NCBI GenBank assembly: GCA_001898035.1 | Contig: MKRX01000002.1 | Coordinates: 74,772-138,771, forward strand | DNA length: 64,000 bases | Direction of reading: 5' to 3' | DNA from: Armatimonadetes bacterium 55-13 | Lineage (GTDB): Bacteria > Armatimonadota > Fimbriimonadia > Fimbriimonadales > Fimbriimonadaceae | Part shown: piece by piece, positions 9,570 to 63,779 of the stretch | How the letters are laid out: every line of letters starts with the position of its first letter | How positions within the stretch are numbered: the first letter of the stretch is position 1 | Program-made: the position numbers and the translations under genes | The notes under the pieces: generated by a model | What the model saw: only the letters and a program-made list of their open reading frames with translations | Told to the model about the DNA's origin: nothing | Database searches by the model: none

Positions 9570-11411
9570 CTACTGACCGATTCCGCTGCTGCCCGCGTTG
9601 ATGATCACCGGCGGTTCCTTGTGGCCCAGCTTATCTACCTGGGCTCGCTTGCGTCGGACTTCGGCAAGGTAGGAAACACTTGCGTGGGGAGGCGTTCGGG
9701 GGTCGTTGGCAAAGGCCTGGGCAAACACCTGCCACATCGGCTCGATATCGTGCGAGAGGTCGAAGACCATCACGCCCTGGCTCGCCCCGCAGGCGCCCTG
9801 GAGTGCCGCACGGAGTCCGTCCGGATTCCCCTTGAACTGGCTGAGGGCGATTCCGGCATAAGTCCAAGATTGATCTCTGACGATGCGGTTCGCCATCTGT
9901 GCGGCTCCTTCGACGCTGTTACCAATGGGGACGCCTTGGCTCAGCGCATCGTAGATGGTCGAGGTGGGGTAGTAGCATCCGGCGATGAAGAAATCGCAAA
10001 GGGGGGCGAGGCCGGTTTGGGCGTACTCGGGGGTTAGGAACCAGAAACCTGCTTCCAAGTCTGGCGAGCCCCAGTTGCTTCCCAGGCGGGGATACTCGCC
10101 ATACCAAGACCCAGCGTAAAGCCCAAATTGCGTTCGGGGGCGAGTCGCCTTGACAGCCTTGCGAATGCGAAGCATGTAGTTCCGCAGGGTTTGGGCTCGG
10201 AATGTCATCCACGCCTCGTAATAGGGGCCGGGAATAACGCCTCGATTCAGCGCAGGACTAATGGTGAACTTAAAGACATCGTCGGGCCAAGTAATCCTTC
10301 TTCCAACGTACTTTTCGAATTGCTGTTGGGTGATCGGGCTAAAGTCGGCGTTGATACCGGCATAGCGAAGGCGATCGTCGTAGATCACTCCGTCCACATC
10401 GTAATTGGTCAAGACCTCTTTCATCAGACTCTCTTCATAGTCTTGGACTTCGGGGTTGTTGGGATTGACCATCAGCGGAACTTGCTGATCGGGTCGCTCG
10501 CTGATCTTTACAAACTTCGGAACGGAACTGAACCTGAGCTTCGAATTGATGGGTGCTTGGTTCTTGAGGAATGTTCCTGCCCCTCCTTTTCCGATGAGGA
10601 CGCTGCCTTGGACCGGCACCCGGGCGGCAGGAACGTTCGACGCTTGGTAGCTGGCGGTTACGGTTCCAAACCGATCGAGCGCCACCGCATACATGTCGGG
10701 CGTGCCTTGATCCGGCATCGCATTGCGATCGTTGTACGCACTTATCTGATCTGCACCCACGGAATTCGGGTTAAAGATGGGGTTGACGGGATAGTTGTCG
10801 TTGTAGATCGAGTACGCCGAGATGAGAGGTTCGTAAAGGGTGGTCTGCCAATCGGTCTTGGCGTAACCTGGGCCGACCTTGAAGTCTCGGTGACCCTCGC
10901 TAAACGCGTTGAGCGAAACCGCCAAGAAAAGTCCCGCATTTTTGCACTCGGAGACCATGGCGGCTAGCGGATCGAAGTCGGCAGGGAGGACCTTACCCTT
11001 CCACTCGGCTAGCCGGGGAGCGATTTTGCTGGGATACATCGTCTGACCGCTGATCGGCTTGATGTCGAAGACGACCGTGTTGAATCCCGACAGGCGGATC
11101 ATCTTGACCAAGGTGGCGACCTTTTCTGAGGTATTGACCTTATCGATATTAGCGGTCGCGTCGATCCAGAGAATCCTGGCCTGGAGGCCCTGACTTCGCG
11201 CGGTTTGCTGGGCGAGACCGTAGCTATTGCCAACCCAATCCATCATCACTCCATTAAGGCTGGGAAGGGGGGATTGAAGGCTAAACCGGCTGGCGGGCGG
11301 CGGCACATGAAGTACGGCGTCCGGAGACGGAGTGGGAAGCTTTTGAGGGGTGGTGGGATCGCCGGAATCAGCCATGATGACGGTTGCGAGACACGCGGCC
11401 AGGATGCTCAT
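9570..11411 (-). CDS. Glycosyl-hydrolase-like family 10 (GHL10/DUF187) protein
   Basis: A 613-residue secreted protein with an N-terminal signal (MSILAACLATVIMA). The core from about residue 50 is a TIM barrel of the GHL10 family, seen in SGFNTVVFDIKPISGQTMYPS, VDGVIYDDRLRYAGI and GLYAGSWYGEYPRLGSNWG. Members such as YngK are thought to act on polysaccharides, but substrates are mostly undefined. It is divergent from the small gene at 11444 with 32 bases between starts. TACAAC eight bases before the ATG is a weak -10 candidate. The stop lies seven bases from the ATG of the decayed gene, which is thus downstream on the same strand. Confidence 0.85.
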   Translation of the reverse strand: MSILAACLATVIMADSGDPTTPQKLPTPSPDAVLHVPPPASRFSLQSPLPSLNGVMMDWVGNSYGLAQQTARSQGLQARILWIDATANIDKVNTSEKVATLVKMIRLSGFNTVVFDIKPISGQTMYPSKIAPRLAEWKGKVLPADFDPLAAMVSECKNAGLFLAVSLNAFSEGHRDFKVGPGYAKTDWQTTLYEPLISAYSIYNDNYPVNPIFNPNSVGADQISAYNDRNAMPDQGTPDMYAVALDRFGTVTASYQASNVPAARVPVQGSVLIGKGGAGTFLKNQAPINSKLRFSSVPKFVKISERPDQQVPLMVNPNNPEVQDYEESLMKEVLTNYDVDGVIYDDRLRYAGINADFSPITQQQFEKYVGRRITWPDDVFKFTISPALNRGVIPGPYYEAWMTFRAQTLRNYMLRIRKAVKATRPRTQFGLYAGSWYGEYPRLGSNWGSPDLEAGFWFLTPEYAQTGLAPLCDFFIAGCYYPTSTIYDALSQGVPIGNSVEGAAQMANRIVRDQSWTYAGIALSQFKGNPDGLRAALQGACGASQGVMVFDLSHDIEPMWQVFAQAFANDPRTPPHASVSYLAEVRRKRAQVDKLGHKEPPVIINAGSSGIGQ

Positions 11412-56564: not shown

Positions 56565-57020
56565 GTGAAGCTCAGAGTCCTTGCATCCATCGCGGCTAAA
56601 TTGACTCTCGCCATGCTCGTCATGGTGGCGGCCTCCGTTGCTTCCGCCGGTTCGATCCGCTGTTATCTCGGCCTGCCGATGAAGGATTGCTTCATGACAC
56701 CGGTTGGCACAAAGACGCCCGTTGTCCAACCTGCGCCAGAAGCGGATTCCTGTTGCCATCCCAAGGCGACTATCGTCAAGCAGGCGCCCAAGCCCAACGA
56801 ATGCTGTTGCATCGAAGCGATGAAGCAGCCCCATACAAACGGTATCCAAGCGGCGGCTCCCGAGTTCCGACTTGACTTCGCGATCATTTTGGTCGCGCCA
56901 CTTGAGGTTCCGGTCTGCCATACCGAGCCAGCCGTTACGCAAATTCGGTGGCCCGAAATTCACGGCCCGCCCGGCATTGAACGTACGCCCGATTCTCCTC
57001 GGGCGCCTCCTGTGATCTGA
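56565..57020 (+). CDS. Cys-rich secreted protein at the head of the copper island
   Basis: A 151-residue exported protein (signal LTLAMLVMVAASVASA). The mature part has Cys in RCYLGLPMKDCF, SCCHPKA and ECCCIEAM, with His and Met among them, a soft-metal-binding look. No family is recognised. It starts with GTG and is followed, across two hairpins, by the YHS protein. A periplasmic copper-binding role is inferred from composition and position. Confidence 0.65.
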   Translation: MKLRVLASIAAKLTLAMLVMVAASVASAGSIRCYLGLPMKDCFMTPVGTKTPVVQPAPEADSCCHPKATIVKQAPKPNECCCIEAMKQPHTNGIQAAAPEFRLDFAIILVAPLEVPVCHTEPAVTQIRWPEIHGPPGIERTPDSPRAPPVI

Positions 57021-57122: not shown

Positions 57123-57827
57123 ATGTTTTTAACCGCAATTGCAATGCTCGTCGTGGGTCAGGCGACCCCTATGTCTTGCCCCGTAATGGGAAATCCTCTT
57201 CACGGCGAGGGGGGCGAAAAGCTCACCTATAAGGGAGCCGAGTACACCACCTGTTGCGCCGGATGTGGCGCCAAGTTCCAAGCCGAGCCGGAGAAGTACC
57301 TCAAGACCCAGGCTAAAGAGGGCCATGTAGTTGGAACCTTCCTCTTTGATCCCACAACCGGCCTGCGAATCGAATCCAAAAACGCCAAGGCTAGTTCTGA
57401 CTTTGGCGGCCTTCGCTACTACTTCGCCTCCGAATCCTCCAAGAAGACCTTCGACGCGAATCCTAAGAAGTTTGTAGTCACTCCTGCGAAAGAGGCTCTC
57501 TTCTGCCCCGTCTCGAAAGAAGCGGTGAAGGACTACGCCGCCGCTTCCGGGTACGGAGACTACAAGGGCGTTCGCTATTTCTTCTGCTGCGGCGGTTGTG
57601 AGAAGCCCTTCTCCGAGAACCCTGCCAAGTACGCGCCAAACGCCGCCAAGGCCGTCCATGCTCCTAAGGTCGTCATGCAGACCTCCGAGAAAATGGCCGA
57701 CATGGCGTTCAACTGCAAGCACTGTGGTCGAAAGATGACGGTGAAGGCGGGCGAGATGGCCGAGAAGTGCAGCGTGTGCAAGTGCGGACAAGCTAACTCT
57801 GCCTGCAAGCCGGCAGGAACCAAGTAA
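57123..57827 (+). CDS. Exported multi-YHS (TRASH-like) metal-binding protein
   Basis: A 234-residue protein with a short hydrophobic N-terminus. Two full YHS-type units carry paired cysteines: CPVMG with TCCAGCGAKF (about 18-60), and FCPVS with FFCCGGCEKPF (about 125-165). A middle unit (65-120) keeps the fold without Cys. The C-terminus is a zinc-ribbon-like knuckle (FNCKHCGRKM and KCSVCKCG). YHS domains bind copper and occur in copper chaperones and CopA-type ATPases. AGGA serves as Shine-Dalgarno. The next gene starts at the very next base. Confidence 0.8.
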   Translation: MFLTAIAMLVVGQATPMSCPVMGNPLHGEGGEKLTYKGAEYTTCCAGCGAKFQAEPEKYLKTQAKEGHVVGTFLFDPTTGLRIESKNAKASSDFGGLRYYFASESSKKTFDANPKKFVVTPAKEALFCPVSKEAVKDYAAASGYGDYKGVRYFFCCGGCEKPFSENPAKYAPNAAKAVHAPKVVMQTSEKMADMAFNCKHCGRKMTVKAGEMAEKCSVCKCGQANSACKPAGTK

Positions 57828-58976
57828 ATGCGTACCTGGGCGCTCACCTTGGGCGCCCTACTCGCCCTTTCGGGGACGGCGAGTTGGGCGCAAGACAATC
57901 CCACGGTCAAGGCGGGCAAATACGTCGTTGAATTCCGAGTACCGGAAGAAGGCGTCTTTGCCCAAGAGGAAATCGATATCGAATTCCGCCTGATGGACTC
58001 GACCATGAACGACGAGATTCTCGGCATGGCCGGAGTCCCAAACGCTGCGGTCAAGGCCACCACCACCATGCCGGAAATGCCCGGAATGCCGGAGGCAAAA
58101 CCACCGATCCACACGGAAGGAGTTCCGGGTGACTACGGAGTCACCTTCTTCTTCCCCCATGGCGGGAAGTATCAAGTCGACCTGAAAATCACCCCTCCCG
58201 GGGGCCAAGAGTTTCTCGCGAAGTTTGACCTGAACGTCAAAGATGAACGAGCGACCAAGGGCGGTAAGCGGGTCCTCCCGTACCGTCTGGACCTGAACAA
58301 CGGTTCAACGGCGAAAGTGGGCCAGCCATTCCCCCTCAAACTCCAGATCAAGGACTCTAAATCGGGAGAGACCGTAAAAGCCTTCGATATCGCGCACGAG
58401 AAGTACTTCCATCTTCTCATTGCCAGCAAGGACTTCGAATGGTTCCTGCACGAGCATCCCGTGATGGAGCCAGACGGAACCTGGGTGATCAATGTCGCCT
58501 TTCCGGCGGAAGGCGAATACCTTGTCTACGGCGATGTTGCTCCGGTCGGCAAAGGCTCCATGATCTTGATGAACAAGCTCAAGGTCTCGGGAGAGAAGCC
58601 GACTTGGAAGGTCAATTGGACCGCAAACAAGGGCCCGGTCACTGATGGAACCATCACCGCCACATTGGGTGGAGATATCCAAATTGGACGCATGTCTCAA
58701 TTGGTCTTCGACCTCAAGGACGCGACCACGGGCCAGCCGGTGACTCAGCTAGAGCAATACCTTGGCGCCCATGGTCACCTCATGATCTTTAGCCAAGACG
58801 GCATGTCCACCGTCCATAGCCACCCCGCCAGCGGAAAGGCCACCGATGATCTCCTTGCTCAAGGGAAGGTCGCGTTTAACGCGCGTATCCCCAAAGCCGG
58901 CAAATATCGAGCCTTTGCGCAGTTCCAGCGGGACGGCAAGATCATGACCTTTAAGTTCACCTTGGACGTGAAGTAA
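57828..58976 (+). CDS. Secreted two-domain protein with His motifs (copper-related)
   Basis: A 382-residue exported protein (signal MRTWALTLGALLALSGTASWA). The N-terminal part is an immunoglobulin-like FixH/YtkA-type domain (TMPEMPGMPEAKPP is a Met-rich loop). Later parts have HEHPVMEPDGTW and YLGAHGHLMIFSQDG with VHSHP, His motifs known from uncharacterised proteins encoded next to copper-export genes. Met and His together suit Cu(I)/Cu(II) binding. It abuts the YHS gene and shares a base with the next one. Confidence 0.72.
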   Translation: MRTWALTLGALLALSGTASWAQDNPTVKAGKYVVEFRVPEEGVFAQEEIDIEFRLMDSTMNDEILGMAGVPNAAVKATTTMPEMPGMPEAKPPIHTEGVPGDYGVTFFFPHGGKYQVDLKITPPGGQEFLAKFDLNVKDERATKGGKRVLPYRLDLNNGSTAKVGQPFPLKLQIKDSKSGETVKAFDIAHEKYFHLLIASKDFEWFLHEHPVMEPDGTWVINVAFPAEGEYLVYGDVAPVGKGSMILMNKLKVSGEKPTWKVNWTANKGPVTDGTITATLGGDIQIGRMSQLVFDLKDATTGQPVTQLEQYLGAHGHLMIFSQDGMSTVHSHPASGKATDDLLAQGKVAFNARIPKAGKYRAFAQFQRDGKIMTFKFTLDVK

Positions 58977-59119
58977 TGGAAGTCGCCGTCGTGGTTGGGG
59001 TCATCTCTATCAGCGCAATTCTCCTGGTTTGGAGATTGGCGCGGAAGGCCGGAATCGGCCTAGATCGTCCCGACTGCGGCTGCGGACACTGCGCGGAGAA
59101 GCGCAAGGAATCGATTTGA
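58976..59119 (+). CDS. 47-residue membrane protein with a CxCxxC tail
   Basis: A small gene that starts on the last base of the upstream stop (TAATG) and whose stop overlaps the next start (TTGA). The protein has one helix (VAVVVGVISISAILLVW) and then DRPDCGCGHCAEKRK. The layout matches the FeoB-associated Cys-rich membrane proteins, but no feoB is present. It may hand copper or electrons across the inner membrane. Overlaps at both ends make this a real gene. Confidence 0.75.
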   Translation: MEVAVVVGVISISAILLVWRLARKAGIGLDRPDCGCGHCAEKRKESI

Positions 59120-60954
59120 AACGAATCCCTATCCTAATGCTGATGGCATTGCTGTTCGCAGCCCTCGCCTCGGCTCACCCTATCACCAAATTCAAATTCC
59201 CCAGTAAAGCGGCCAAACAACTCCTCGCTGCCTCAAAGGAACTGGAAGCCTACAAGTCGGATCTCGATAAAGCAGGGAAATACTCCTGCTGTATGAAAGC
59301 TCCCACCGGGAGCCGAGTCGACGGCTGTAACATGTGCGCCGTCCAAAACGGTTCATGCTCCTGCGGCGCAAACCTTGCCCAAGGCAAAGGCGTTTGCGGC
59401 GAGTGCAAAGGCGCATGGCTCAACGGCAAGGGGGGCATGAATCTGAAGGAAGTGGGCATCGCCAATGCAGAAGCGATCCCCGTCTTGCCCAGTCAGCACC
59501 AATCGATGGCCGACGTCAAGCAGGACGAATCCAATCCTCACCTCAAGAAGTACCGCGAGCTGATCCTGTCCTCAAAGAAGGTTCTCGTCACCGAAAAGCG
59601 ATTCAATTGCTGCGTTGGAAAGGGCGGGTGCGATGAGTGTGCCCTGGAGCAATACTGCGGATGCGCCGTTAACCTCAACGAAGACCTCAAGAAGAAAGAC
59701 GGCGAGAAGAAGGACGGTATCTGCGCCCAATGCCTAGATGGTCAGCACGCCGGCCATGGACGTATCCCAGGTGTGGACCCAAATAAAGTCGCCGTGATGT
59801 CCATGGACATGAACATGAAAGGCGCGATTGGAACCGACATGTCCCAAGAGGGAAGCGGCACCACTTGGCTCCCGGCAAACTCCCCCATGTACATGAAGAA
59901 CCTCGGCGTGTTCGGCGGCTACGACGTCAACTTCATGGGCCTCGGCACCGTCAACTTTGCCGACTCCGGCGGCAAGCGCGGTGAAAGTCAGTGGTTCTCC
60001 AATTCCATGCTGATGTTCATGGCTCAAAAGGAGATCGGTGAAGACACCCTCGCCTTCCGATTCATGGGCTCGCTCGATCCCTTTGCCGATGGTAAGAAGG
60101 GCTATCCCAATCTCTTCCAAACGGGAGAGACCGCCTTTGGCGAACCCCTAAAGGATCGGCAGCATCCGCACGATCTCATCATGGAACTCGCCGCAACCTA
60201 CTCCAAACCCCTATCGGAGAACGTTCGCGGATTCCTCTACCTCGCCCCGGTCGGAGAGCCCGCCCTCGGAACCAGCGCTTTCCAACATCGCCCAAGTTCA
60301 TGGGAGATGCCCGAGGCTCCGATCAACCACCACTGGAATGACGGCACTCATATCAGTTCAGGCGTCGTGACCGCCGGAGTCAACATCGGCGAAACCTGGA
60401 AGATCGATGCGTCCCTCTTCACCGGACGAGAGCCCGATGAAAACCGCTACGACATCGATCCAATCAAACTCGATTCCGCCTCCGGAAGAATCACTTTCAA
60501 CCCAACTCGGAACTGGTCGCTTAGCGCCTCCTACGGATTCCTCAATGATCCCGAATCGCTTGAACCCGGCGTCGATGTTCACCGAATCGTCCTGAGCGCC
60601 CTTCATCAGCGTGGCGATCTCTCGCTCGGTGCGGTCTGGGCCAGAAACATCAAGCATGGCGAGAACTCGGATGCCTTCTCACTAGAAGGCACTTATGCAA
60701 ACGCCGGCGGAAGCCTCTTTGCTCGTTTCGAGCATGTGGACAAGGATGAATTGGTAGATGTCCCCGAAGGAATCTACAAGATCAACAAGTTCACCCTTGG
60801 CGGAGTGAAAAACTTTGCCCGTTCCGGCGGTTTCGAATACGGTGTCGGCGCCTATCTCGCCCTCTACTCTTTCCCGTCCAGCTTGAACGACTACTACGGA
60901 AAGAACCCCGTCTCATTTGGCATCTTCCTCCGGGTTCGCCCCGAGAAGATGTAG
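59116..60954 (+). CDS. Outer-membrane barrel with two N-terminal 8-Cys domains
   Basis: The TTG at 59116 gives a signal peptide (KRIPILMLMALLFAALASA) and 613 residues. The frame extends to 59029, but that start overlaps the small gene fully. Two repeats follow, each CC-x(7-12)-C-x2-C-x(6)-C-x-C-x(n)-C-x2-C: the first with GCNMC, SCSCG, VCGEC, the second with GCDEC, YCGCA, ICAQC. From about residue 240 the protein is Met-rich (MSMDMNMKG), then a barrel of beta strands with HPHD and the His-rich NHHWNDGTH motif, ending at RVRPEKM. Barrels of this type occur beside copper genes. The fused Cys domains are unusual. Confidence 0.72.
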   Translation: MKRIPILMLMALLFAALASAHPITKFKFPSKAAKQLLAASKELEAYKSDLDKAGKYSCCMKAPTGSRVDGCNMCAVQNGSCSCGANLAQGKGVCGECKGAWLNGKGGMNLKEVGIANAEAIPVLPSQHQSMADVKQDESNPHLKKYRELILSSKKVLVTEKRFNCCVGKGGCDECALEQYCGCAVNLNEDLKKKDGEKKDGICAQCLDGQHAGHGRIPGVDPNKVAVMSMDMNMKGAIGTDMSQEGSGTTWLPANSPMYMKNLGVFGGYDVNFMGLGTVNFADSGGKRGESQWFSNSMLMFMAQKEIGEDTLAFRFMGSLDPFADGKKGYPNLFQTGETAFGEPLKDRQHPHDLIMELAATYSKPLSENVRGFLYLAPVGEPALGTSAFQHRPSSWEMPEAPINHHWNDGTHISSGVVTAGVNIGETWKIDASLFTGREPDENRYDIDPIKLDSASGRITFNPTRNWSLSASYGFLNDPESLEPGVDVHRIVLSALHQRGDLSLGAVWARNIKHGENSDAFSLEGTYANAGGSLFARFEHVDKDELVDVPEGIYKINKFTLGGVKNFARSGGFEYGVGAYLALYSFPSSLNDYYGKNPVSFGIFLRVRPEKM

Positions 60955-61013: not shown

Positions 61014-61029
61014 ATACCCCATGGGGTAT
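61014..61029. promoter_or_regulatory. CsoR operator
   Basis: ATACCCC-AT... the full 16-base perfect palindrome ATACCCCATGGGGTAT. It matches the known style of CsoR sites (TACCCC arms, GGGGTA). TATAAG at its right edge may be the -10, five bases before the GTG of csoR, so a bound repressor would block transcription of csoR-copZ-copA until Cu(I) is bound. Confidence 0.8.
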
Positions 61030-61037
61030 AAGAAGGT

Positions 61038-61328
61038 GTGAGCGCACAAGACACCAAAAACATCGATCGGCGGCTGGCTCGGGTAGAGGGACAGATCCGA
61101 GGGATCCGGCGCATGGTCGATGAAGGAGAATACTGCTGCGATATCTTGACTCAGTTAACGGCCGTTAAGTCCGCTGTCGAGCAAATATCCGCCGCCGTCG
61201 CTTCGTCGCACATCAAGCACTGCATCGTGGATCATGGCCAAGGTAAGGGCCACGCGAAGGCGGAAGCGATGTCGAAAGACGAACTCCTGGACGAACTAGA
61301 CGAGGTTCTTGGGCGCTTGATGCGATGA
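61038..61328 (+). CDS. csoR: Copper-sensing repressor CsoR
   Basis: An all-helical DUF156-family repressor of 96 residues. The Cu(I) ligands fit the classic spacing: Cys33 (EYCCDIL), His58 and Cys62 (SHIKHC), giving C-x24-H-x3-C. Cu(I) binding releases the operator just upstream. GTG start. copZ and copA follow on the same strand. The extra Cys34 is not usual. Confidence 0.93.
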   Translation: MSAQDTKNIDRRLARVEGQIRGIRRMVDEGEYCCDILTQLTAVKSAVEQISAAVASSHIKHCIVDHGQGKGHAKAEAMSKDELLDELDEVLGRLMR

Positions 61329-61352
61329 GATACCCATAGGAGTATTTTGAAA

Positions 61353-61559
61353 ATGACAACCAAACTGACTGTAACCGGCATGACCTGCCAAAACTGCGTC
61401 AAGCACGTAACCGAAGCCCTTGCCGCCCTCCCGGACGTTCAAAGCGTTCAGGTCTCCCTAGAAGGAGAATCCGCCGTCGTTGAGCACAGCGAAGACACCA
61501 ACATCGAAACGCTGATTCACGCGGTGGAAGAGGAGGGCTACGAAGCCAAGGAGGCATAA
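61353..61559 (+). CDS. copZ: Copper chaperone CopZ
   Basis: A 68-residue heavy-metal-associated domain with the binding motif GMTCQNC (Cys11/Cys14 or one step on, depending on the start). It carries Cu(I) to CopA or to CsoR. AGGAG lies upstream. The ATG at 61353 and the TTG at 61347 are both possible starts. It ends right before copA. Confidence 0.9.
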   Translation: MTTKLTVTGMTCQNCVKHVTEALAALPDVQSVQVSLEGESAVVEHSEDTNIETLIHAVEEEGYEAKEA

Positions 61560-63779
61560 ATGGCCACCGCACCCCACGACCACCATCCCGCCGAACACGA
61601 AACTCAACTCCAGATCCAGGGAATGACTTGTGCATCCTGCGTGAGGAGGGTTGAAAAGGCGCTCACGAAGACCCCTGGGGTCGCCAGCGCAAACGTGAAC
61701 TTTGCCACCCACGAGGCGACGGTCACCCACGAAGCCCCCATCGATGCGAACCTCCTCGTCAAGGCGGTCACCGACGCGGGTTATGAAGCCAGGCCGATCG
61801 AGGCCGACGTTCACGCTCACCACACCCCGAGCGAACACGCCGAGCACCTGCGACAAGAGTCCGCCTCAGAGATGAGGAAGATCCAGATCAACCTTTGGAT
61901 CGCCGCCATCCTGACGCTGCCAGTCTTCGTACTCTCGATGGCTTGGCACCCACGCCCGGAGTGGGCGAACTGGATGCTCTTCGTGCTGGCCACCCCCATC
62001 ATCTTTGGATCGGGACGACAGTTCTTCGTCGTTGCCGCCAAGGCCGCGCGGCACTTCAGTGCAACCATGGACACCCTTGTCGCCATGGGCGCGGGAGCCG
62101 CCTGGCTCTACAGCACCTATTCGCTGTTCGCCAACCGGGGTAACTCGCACCTGCAAAGCGAGCATATTTACTTCGAGACGGGCGCCGTCATCGTGACGCT
62201 CATCCTGTTTGGCCGATACCTGGAAGCCAAAGCCAAGTCGCGAATGTCCGACGCGATCCGCAAACTCATGGACCTCTCCCCCAAGAAGGCGACCAAGGTT
62301 GTTGACGGGAAGGATATTGAAGTCTCCGTTGACCAAATCAAAGTTGGAGACCAAATCCGAGTTCGACCGGGTGAAAGAATCGCCGTAGACGGAAGCGTCA
62401 CTGAGGGCGAGTCCTTTGTGGACGAGTCCATGATCACTGGCGAACCTATTCCCGTCTCCAAACAGGCTGGAGATTCGGTCACCGGTGGAACCGTCAATGA
62501 TCGCGGCTCGCTCATCTTCCGAGCCGAACGCGTCGGATCGGAAACAACGCTTGCCCAGATTGCTAAGATGGTCAGTCATGCGCAGGGTTCCAAGGCGCCC
62601 ATGCAGAGCCTTGCCGACAAGGTCTCATCCGTCTTTGTCCCCGTGGTTATCGCAATCGCACTGGTCACTGCTATCGTCTACTTTGTGCTTGGGAACTCCT
62701 GGGATCAGGCCCTGATGCCCGCCGTCGCCGTCCTCGTCATCGCCTGCCCTTGCGCGCTAGGACTCGCCACCCCCACCGCCCTCATGGTCAGTACCGGTCG
62801 CGGGGCTGAACTCGGAATCCTGGTGAAGAACGGCGAGGCGCTCGAACGTGCCGGAGCCGTCAAGACCGTCTTACTCGATAAGACCGGAACCCTGACGGAA
62901 GGAAAGCCAAGGCTGACCGACGTCAAAGTGTTCGGCGACTGGTCAGAAGAAGAAGCCCTCGCCGTCTCCGCTGCCGTAGAGTCTCAAAGCGAACACCCCA
63001 TCGGCCAAGCGGTCGTCAAGGGCGCTGGCGAACGAAATCTGCAAGTTCCCCCGGTCACCGCCTTTGAATCCGAGCGTGGTCTTGGCGTGAAGGGAACGGT
63101 CGCAGACCGCCTCATCAAGATCGGCCGCCTTCGCTATCTGCCTGAATCCGCTCAGCAACTCTCCGAGCCAATGGCCAACCTGGAAGCCGAAGGGAAGACG
63201 GTCTTTGGCGTCTACCGTGAAGATGGCGCAATGGCCATCCTCGCCGTTTCCGATGTCGTCGGAGAACATAGTGCCGAAGCCATCCAATTGCTGAAAGAAC
63301 TGGAGATCCGCCCGGTGATGGTTACCGGCGACAATCAACGCACCGCCGAAGCGGTTGCTAGGAGCGTCGGCATCGACCAAGTCGAGGCCCAGGTCCTTCC
63401 CGCCGATAAGGCAAACATCGTTCGCCGCTACCAGGAGCAATCACCGGCGGCGATGGTGGGAGATGGCGTGAACGATGCCCCCGCCCTGGCTCAAGCCGAT
63501 CTCGGTATTGCCATGGGCACCGGAACGGATGTCGCCATGGAAACCGCCGGGGTGACCCTGCTGCGGTCGGACCTTCGTGGCGTCCCCACTGCGATCAACC
63601 TTGCGAGAAAAACCCTTGCCACCATCCGCCAGAACCTTTTCTGGGCGTTTGTCTATAACGTGGTCATGATCCCGCTCGCCGCCTTCGGCATCATGAGCCC
63701 CATGCTCGCCGCCGGCGCCATGGCCTTCTCCAGCGTCTCCGTCATCCTCAATTCACTCCGACTCAAGCGGTTCCATTGA
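61560..63779 (+). CDS. copA: Copper-exporting P1B-type ATPase
   Basis: Inner-membrane Cu(I) pump of 739 residues. One N-terminal metal domain with GMTCASC (Cys24, Cys27), preceded by a His-rich start (HDHHPAEHE) and followed by a His-rich linker ([12 protein letters not shown]). The membrane part has the CPC ion site at 396-398, the phosphorylated Asp440 in DKTGT, and TGE (MITGEP), the nucleotide HP motif (SEHPIG) and [10 protein letters not shown]. Last gene of csoR-copZ-copA, starting on the next base after copZ. Confidence 0.96.

Follow-up and report, generated by a model that had tools for sequence, protein, structure and literature searches.

The window, i.e. the whole 64,000-nucleotide stretch of DNA that was analysed, comes from a bacterium related to Fimbriimonas. 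It harbours a co-directional run of forward-strand genes starting with an ORF recognized by its sequence as coding for a small Cys-rich exported protein (56565-57020), whose product carries the motifs SCCHPK and ECCCIEA and is 41% conserved in the sister contig L002. Next come genes for a protein that combines metal-binding stretches of the YHS (TRASH-like) type, identified with Pfam, with a CxxC/CxxC tail (57123-57827), and for a 382-residue YtkA/FixH-like protein, assigned by Pfam and neighbour comparison (57828-58976). A 47-codon ORF (58976-59119), whose product weakly matches FeoB-associated Cys membrane peptides, below the cut-off, overlaps the YtkA-like gene by 1 bp, and its stop shares four bases with the TTG start of the next gene. 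The latter (59116-60954) is open throughout and codes for a 612-residue protein with a signal peptide, two domains of eight Cys residues each (hereafter 8-Cys heads), a Met-rich linker and an outer-membrane barrel modelled with 16 strands. A FeoB-associated-like Cys membrane peptide (47-51 residues) adjoins a YtkA-like gene in the related locus L119 as well (10736-10891).

Downstream of the barrel gene, a pattern search revealed a perfect CsoR-type palindrome, ATACCCCATGGGGTAT (61014-61029). It precedes the forward-strand genes for a CsoR/RicR-family copper-sensing repressor (61038-61328; Pfam and NCBIfam), a CopZ-like HMA copper chaperone with an MTCxxC motif (61347-61559; sequence comparison) and a CopA-type Cu(I) P1B ATPase (61560-63779; Pfam and NCBIfam). 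The same search found a second, degenerate copy of the palindrome with two mismatches before copZ (61330-61345), and no sequence fitting the pattern used in the related loci. As the 4.5-Mb genome encodes approximately four to five CopA-type ATPases, we estimate the likelihood of chance linkage at ~2% per locus. Genes for such ATPases were also present in the fetched stretches of the barrel loci L116, L119, L121, L127, L131 (a short fragment), L028 and L029; among loci with 8-Cys barrels, copA was in reach only in the window and L116, several of the contigs being short. Relatives of the barrel are encoded beside copper P-type ATPases on Sphingobium baderi and Pontibacter plasmids. A preliminary description of this DNA had placed barrels of this type beside copper genes, in agreement with the csoR-copZ-copA genes, the palindrome, the YtkA-like neighbour and the plasmid relatives. 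As judged from gene neighbourhoods, the copper context of the fusion is well supported.

Architecture and predicted structure of the barrel protein

The signal peptide (residues 1-20, 59116-59175) was delimited from the sequence, its cleavage site between LKRIPILMLMALLFAALASA and HPITK being predicted by inspection only. The Cys residues of head 1 (residues 33-112, 59212-59451) are at positions 58, 59, 71, 74, 81, 83, 94 and 97, and those of head 2 (residues 141-222, 59536-59781), delimited by profile and model, at positions 165, 166, 172, 175, 181, 183, 203 and 206. The CC/CxxC/CxC/CxxC succession occurs exactly twice in the protein, amounting to 16 Cys, and the strict pattern never arose when the head region was shuffled 20,000 times. 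A single profile, whose 15 rows include both repeats, matches them with E values of 3.9e-27 and 4.3e-27, and their direct alignment shows 24% identity; at the sequence level, the two repeats are homologous. No additional copy of the domain was found in the genome by profile search. The Met-rich linker (residues 226-242, 59791-59841), with Met residues at positions 228, 230, 232, 234 and 242, leads to the barrel (59890-60951), which contains no Cys. In an alignment of 34 sequences, two His motifs of the barrel, QHPHD (residues 349-353) and HHWNDGTH (residues 405-412), are largely invariant. The twin Cys repeats, the linker and the His-bearing barrel had all been noticed in the preliminary description, and these analyses bear them out.

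The full-length AF2 model, computed from an alignment that excluded the plasmid sequences, has a mean pLDDT of 88.7, a pTM of 0.71 and approximately 16 barrel strands. The 50 best Foldseek matches to this model were all general porins (E values down to 6.5e-13), with target TM scores of 0.58-0.68 for OmpF, Omp32 and OmpU. The barrel is predicted to have the 16-strand fold of these porins, with which it shares ~8-13% sequence identity; the protein differs from them in its periplasmic heads and its His-bearing L2 and L3 loops. QHPHD would be in the long loop L2 (residues 319-354, 60070-60177), numbered by strand order. H391, H405, H406 and H412 would belong to the long loop L3 (residues 381-413, 60256-60354), at the likely position of the porin constriction loop; the invariant residues of L3 are H391, R392, H405, W407, D409 and H412.

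This model differs from the 12-strand barrel of the PcoB/CopB type. Membership in the CopB/PcoB family (PF05275) was ruled out by profile and by strand count, i.e. 12 strands in PcoB/CopB (PMC12509749) versus ~16 in the predicted model. The CopB profile had no match in the window genome, while it matched the Caulobacter control. By analogy, PcoB is nevertheless the closest functional parallel. The two have in common an outer-membrane barrel, a periplasmic N-terminus rich in metal ligands, a location in a copper locus and an upstream partner gene with an overlap of four bases, as described for pcoA-pcoB (PMC12509749). However, the N-terminus of PcoB is a disordered His/Met tail, required for copper resistance (PMC12509749), rather than ordered 8-Cys heads, and its partner is a multicopper oxidase rather than a YtkA-like protein. 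The 612-residue protein matched no Pfam family at E≤10 and none in NCBIfam, and hence the fusion does not correspond to a named family of these databases. A search of the openly accessible literature yielded no description of the fusion or the 8-Cys domain.

In the AF2 model of the head region (pLDDT 87.9, pTM 0.82), a long helix opens each head, and turns carrying the Cys residues, together with short helices, make up the rest. Profile comparison with PDB sequences gave a best E value of 0.2, for unrelated chains, and Foldseek, which is weak on small Cys-rich domains, gave a best E value of 7.4 against PDB folds. The predicted head fold thus looks new. The genome harbours two VKOR-family genes, and periplasmic Cys residues may therefore be oxidized, which makes disulfides, and even disulfide-only heads, possible.

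Distribution of the 8-Cys domain and of the barrel

A class-wide search with the window protein matched 22 of 113 genomes. Many matches corresponded to the barrel alone with a different N-terminus, and some to isolated 8-Cys domains in small exported proteins. Using profile A1, built on 15 domains, we found the 8-Cys domain in 30 of the 291 genomes of the phylum. Tandem-head barrels are present in Armatimonadota families f1, f12 and f13 (eight complete or near-complete proteins and one contig-end fragment), and five single-head barrels, whose head is of the head 2 type, are found in a fourth family, f10. Sixteen standalone heads were read from profile-matched loci and, by inspection, carry a signal peptide or a lipoprotein-like sequence. 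The eight Cys residues and a G-x-G motif are invariant across the 15 aligned domains, and all eight Cys are kept in every further domain found. The paired-head fusion is thus widespread in the phylum rather than singular. A one-off fusion or an assembly artefact was ruled out by its recurrence in independent genomes and deep branches.

In a 36-row tree of the barrels, the 8-Cys state requires three changes. The f12 fusions are in a deep clade separate from that of the f1, f10 and f13 fusions, and therefore the set of head, barrel and partner may either be old, with losses, or have moved as a unit; the tree accommodates both histories. The headless barrels of Fimbriimonadia, Sphingobium and Pontibacter are homologous to the window protein (~39-60% identity) and have the same HPHD and HHW motifs, but in place of 8-Cys heads their N-termini are YtkA-like, Met/His-rich or made of another Cys domain. 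Those on plasmids are annotated as hypothetical proteins. A 5.23-Mb single-contig genome (G014) likewise encodes the barrel together with the YtkA-like protein but no 8-Cys heads.

Beyond the phylum, our searches covered plasmids, viral contigs and one strict genome scan. The plasmid search for the head gave a sole match outside the phylum, a Fusobacteria protein with all eight Cys (profile E value 8.1e-16), whose gene has as neighbours one for a heavy-metal ATPase and one for a metal-resistance protein of PF13801. This protein, encoded on a plasmid of Fusobacteria bacterium ZRK30 beside the heavy-metal P-type ATPase (L061, 2875-3396), has a His-rich tail. A new search starting from it retrieved only itself, and no match to the head was found in the viral contigs.

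The standalone heads had only sub-threshold noise against Pfam and NCBIfam. Their flanks contain 15.8% Met residues compared with 2.2% in long ORFs, a count in which one flank of the 16 (L091) wrongly includes the domain core. No CopA-type ATPase gene was found in the fetched stretches of the standalone-head loci of the phylum. At 10 of the 16 loci (L093, L094, L095 and L098-L104), the head gene adjoins an ECF sigma factor gene, and several of these loci also encode a zf-HC2 anti-sigma factor; as five of the ten are close relatives, the independent cases are fewer than ten. This gene association points to a possible envelope metal-stress circuit. A control link of this kind, together with the chemical feasibility of four-Cys tetrahedral Zn sites, would fit heads that bind or sense zinc or another metal, copper being incidental. 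We consider this quite improbable, given that the copper-type neighbours of the fusion and the Met-rich flanks speak for Cu(I) or Ag(I).

Bufferins (DUF2282), which are MNIO-modified copper-binding RiPPs, are likewise exported Cys-containing proteins, with a Cys pattern that differs from that of the 8-Cys domain. A bufferin-type RiPP was ruled out, as the MNIO enzyme family PF05114 is absent from the window genome while the controls were matched. The ECF sigma link of the standalone 8-Cys genes is shared with a bufferin-type operon, the DUF2282 operon of Caulobacter, which adjoins sigF and is under sigF control (PMC3511200); by analogy this is a parallel, not homology.

The YtkA/FixH-like partner and putative copper handling

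We compared 48 loci, including up to ~9 kb on each side, with the window genes. A gene for a YtkA/FixH-like protein of 380-430 residues is present upstream in all 14 fusions with a readable 5' flank, i.e. the window, the sister contig L002 and 12 other 8-Cys barrel loci. It directly adjoins the barrel gene in the latter 12, with a four-base overlap in nine and apparent mis-set starts in three, and in the window the 47-codon ORF stands in between. For headless barrels, an upstream YtkA-like gene is clear in L119 only, and a weak match lies 0.4 kb upstream of the barrel gene in L138. Nine other headless barrels (L009, L010, L011, L012, L013, L014, L016, L131 and L134) include a YtkA domain in the barrel protein itself, at the N-terminus in eight and at the C-terminus in one, and from this fusion pattern the YtkA protein and the barrel appear to work together. 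The Bacillus subtilis member of the YtkA family (PF13115), CtaK, has been implicated in CuA assembly (PMC13344008). Family members occur here as an obligate partner and as an alternative barrel-fused domain, whereas the 8-Cys head has no YtkA match. An ordinary porin whose N-terminal extension is structural, and whose copper neighbours are accidental, would agree with the general-porin fold of the modelled barrel. This is most unlikely in view of the 14/14 YtkA-like linkage over deep branches, the P-type ATPase neighbours on the plasmids as well, and the invariant His residues in two loops.

Because this design recurs in distant relatives, always beside the same copper-chaperone-like gene, the fusion probably represents a copper channel of a new type and is a putative metal binder. 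As the best explanation, to which we give roughly even chances, the protein would be a porin-like outer-membrane channel belonging to a copper-associated family of barrels without a name, with putative Cu(I)-capturing heads that feed the pore. CopA would export Cu(I) to the periplasm, where the YtkA/FixH-like product of the upstream gene would shuttle it, and the thiolate-rich heads would capture it. Via the Met linker, Cu(I) would then reach the invariant His residues in the loops of the pore, and from there leave the cell. This scheme supposes Cu(I) binding, not disulfide formation, by the head Cys residues, contact between heads and partner with hand-over of Cu(I) from the latter, and a presumably outward flow of copper. 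More tentatively, and with a rather lower likelihood, the 8-Cys domain might be a new small fold that holds, on the periplasmic side, a polynuclear cluster of Cu(I) and thiolates, in which case the fusion would define a new class of outer-membrane metal channels, with metallothionein-like heads loading the pore. A polynuclear cluster of Cu(I) or zinc in the heads had been put forward as a possibility in the preliminary description.

The heads might instead be docking modules, each stabilized by four disulfides, that keep the YtkA-like protein at the outer membrane, with copper handled by this partner and the His loops only. Encoded VKOR, strictly even numbers of Cys per domain that never vary, and an obligate partner gene are consistent with such a role, as are the headless barrels, in which YtkA is part of the barrel protein, as though the head took the place of such a covalent connection. 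However, sets of CxxC, CxC and CC with Met-rich flanks are typical of soft-metal sites, and most standalone heads have neither a barrel nor a YtkA gene nearby. We regard docking as a minority possibility.

The passage of copper across the outer membrane is unsettled, and two studies of PcoB disagree on its direction (PMC12509749, PMC9210255). Isolated PcoB sensitized cells to copper and passed it down a gradient in vitro, and as it was read as an importer (PMC9210255), the direction of flux is contested. By the same token, the barrel described here might admit copper to the periplasm, with the heads buffering or storing it, and an energy source that could drive outward flow is not evident. We deem import unlikely, since the neighbouring csoR-copZ-copA genes serve export and detoxification, and loss of the PcoB N-terminus in Caulobacter raised cell copper (PMC12509749). 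The genome also encodes RND transporters, which could perform the copper export in place of the proposed channel.

The 8-Cys domain would give the exported metal-binding proteins a further named family, perhaps with a new fold. One barrel type exists in natural variants with interchangeable periplasmic modules, namely one or two 8-Cys heads, a YtkA domain or a Met/His tail, and these variants allow a direct test of whether the periplasmic part loads the pore. Two further variants of the barrel protein were observed. The headless barrel protein of L006 (1450-3168) begins with a different Cys domain, with CAHCG and CMLC motifs, which is possibly NosL-like and has no Pfam match, and the barrel protein of L132 (5192-7027) has a linker of GMKGM-type tandem repeats that Pfam reads as collagen-like.
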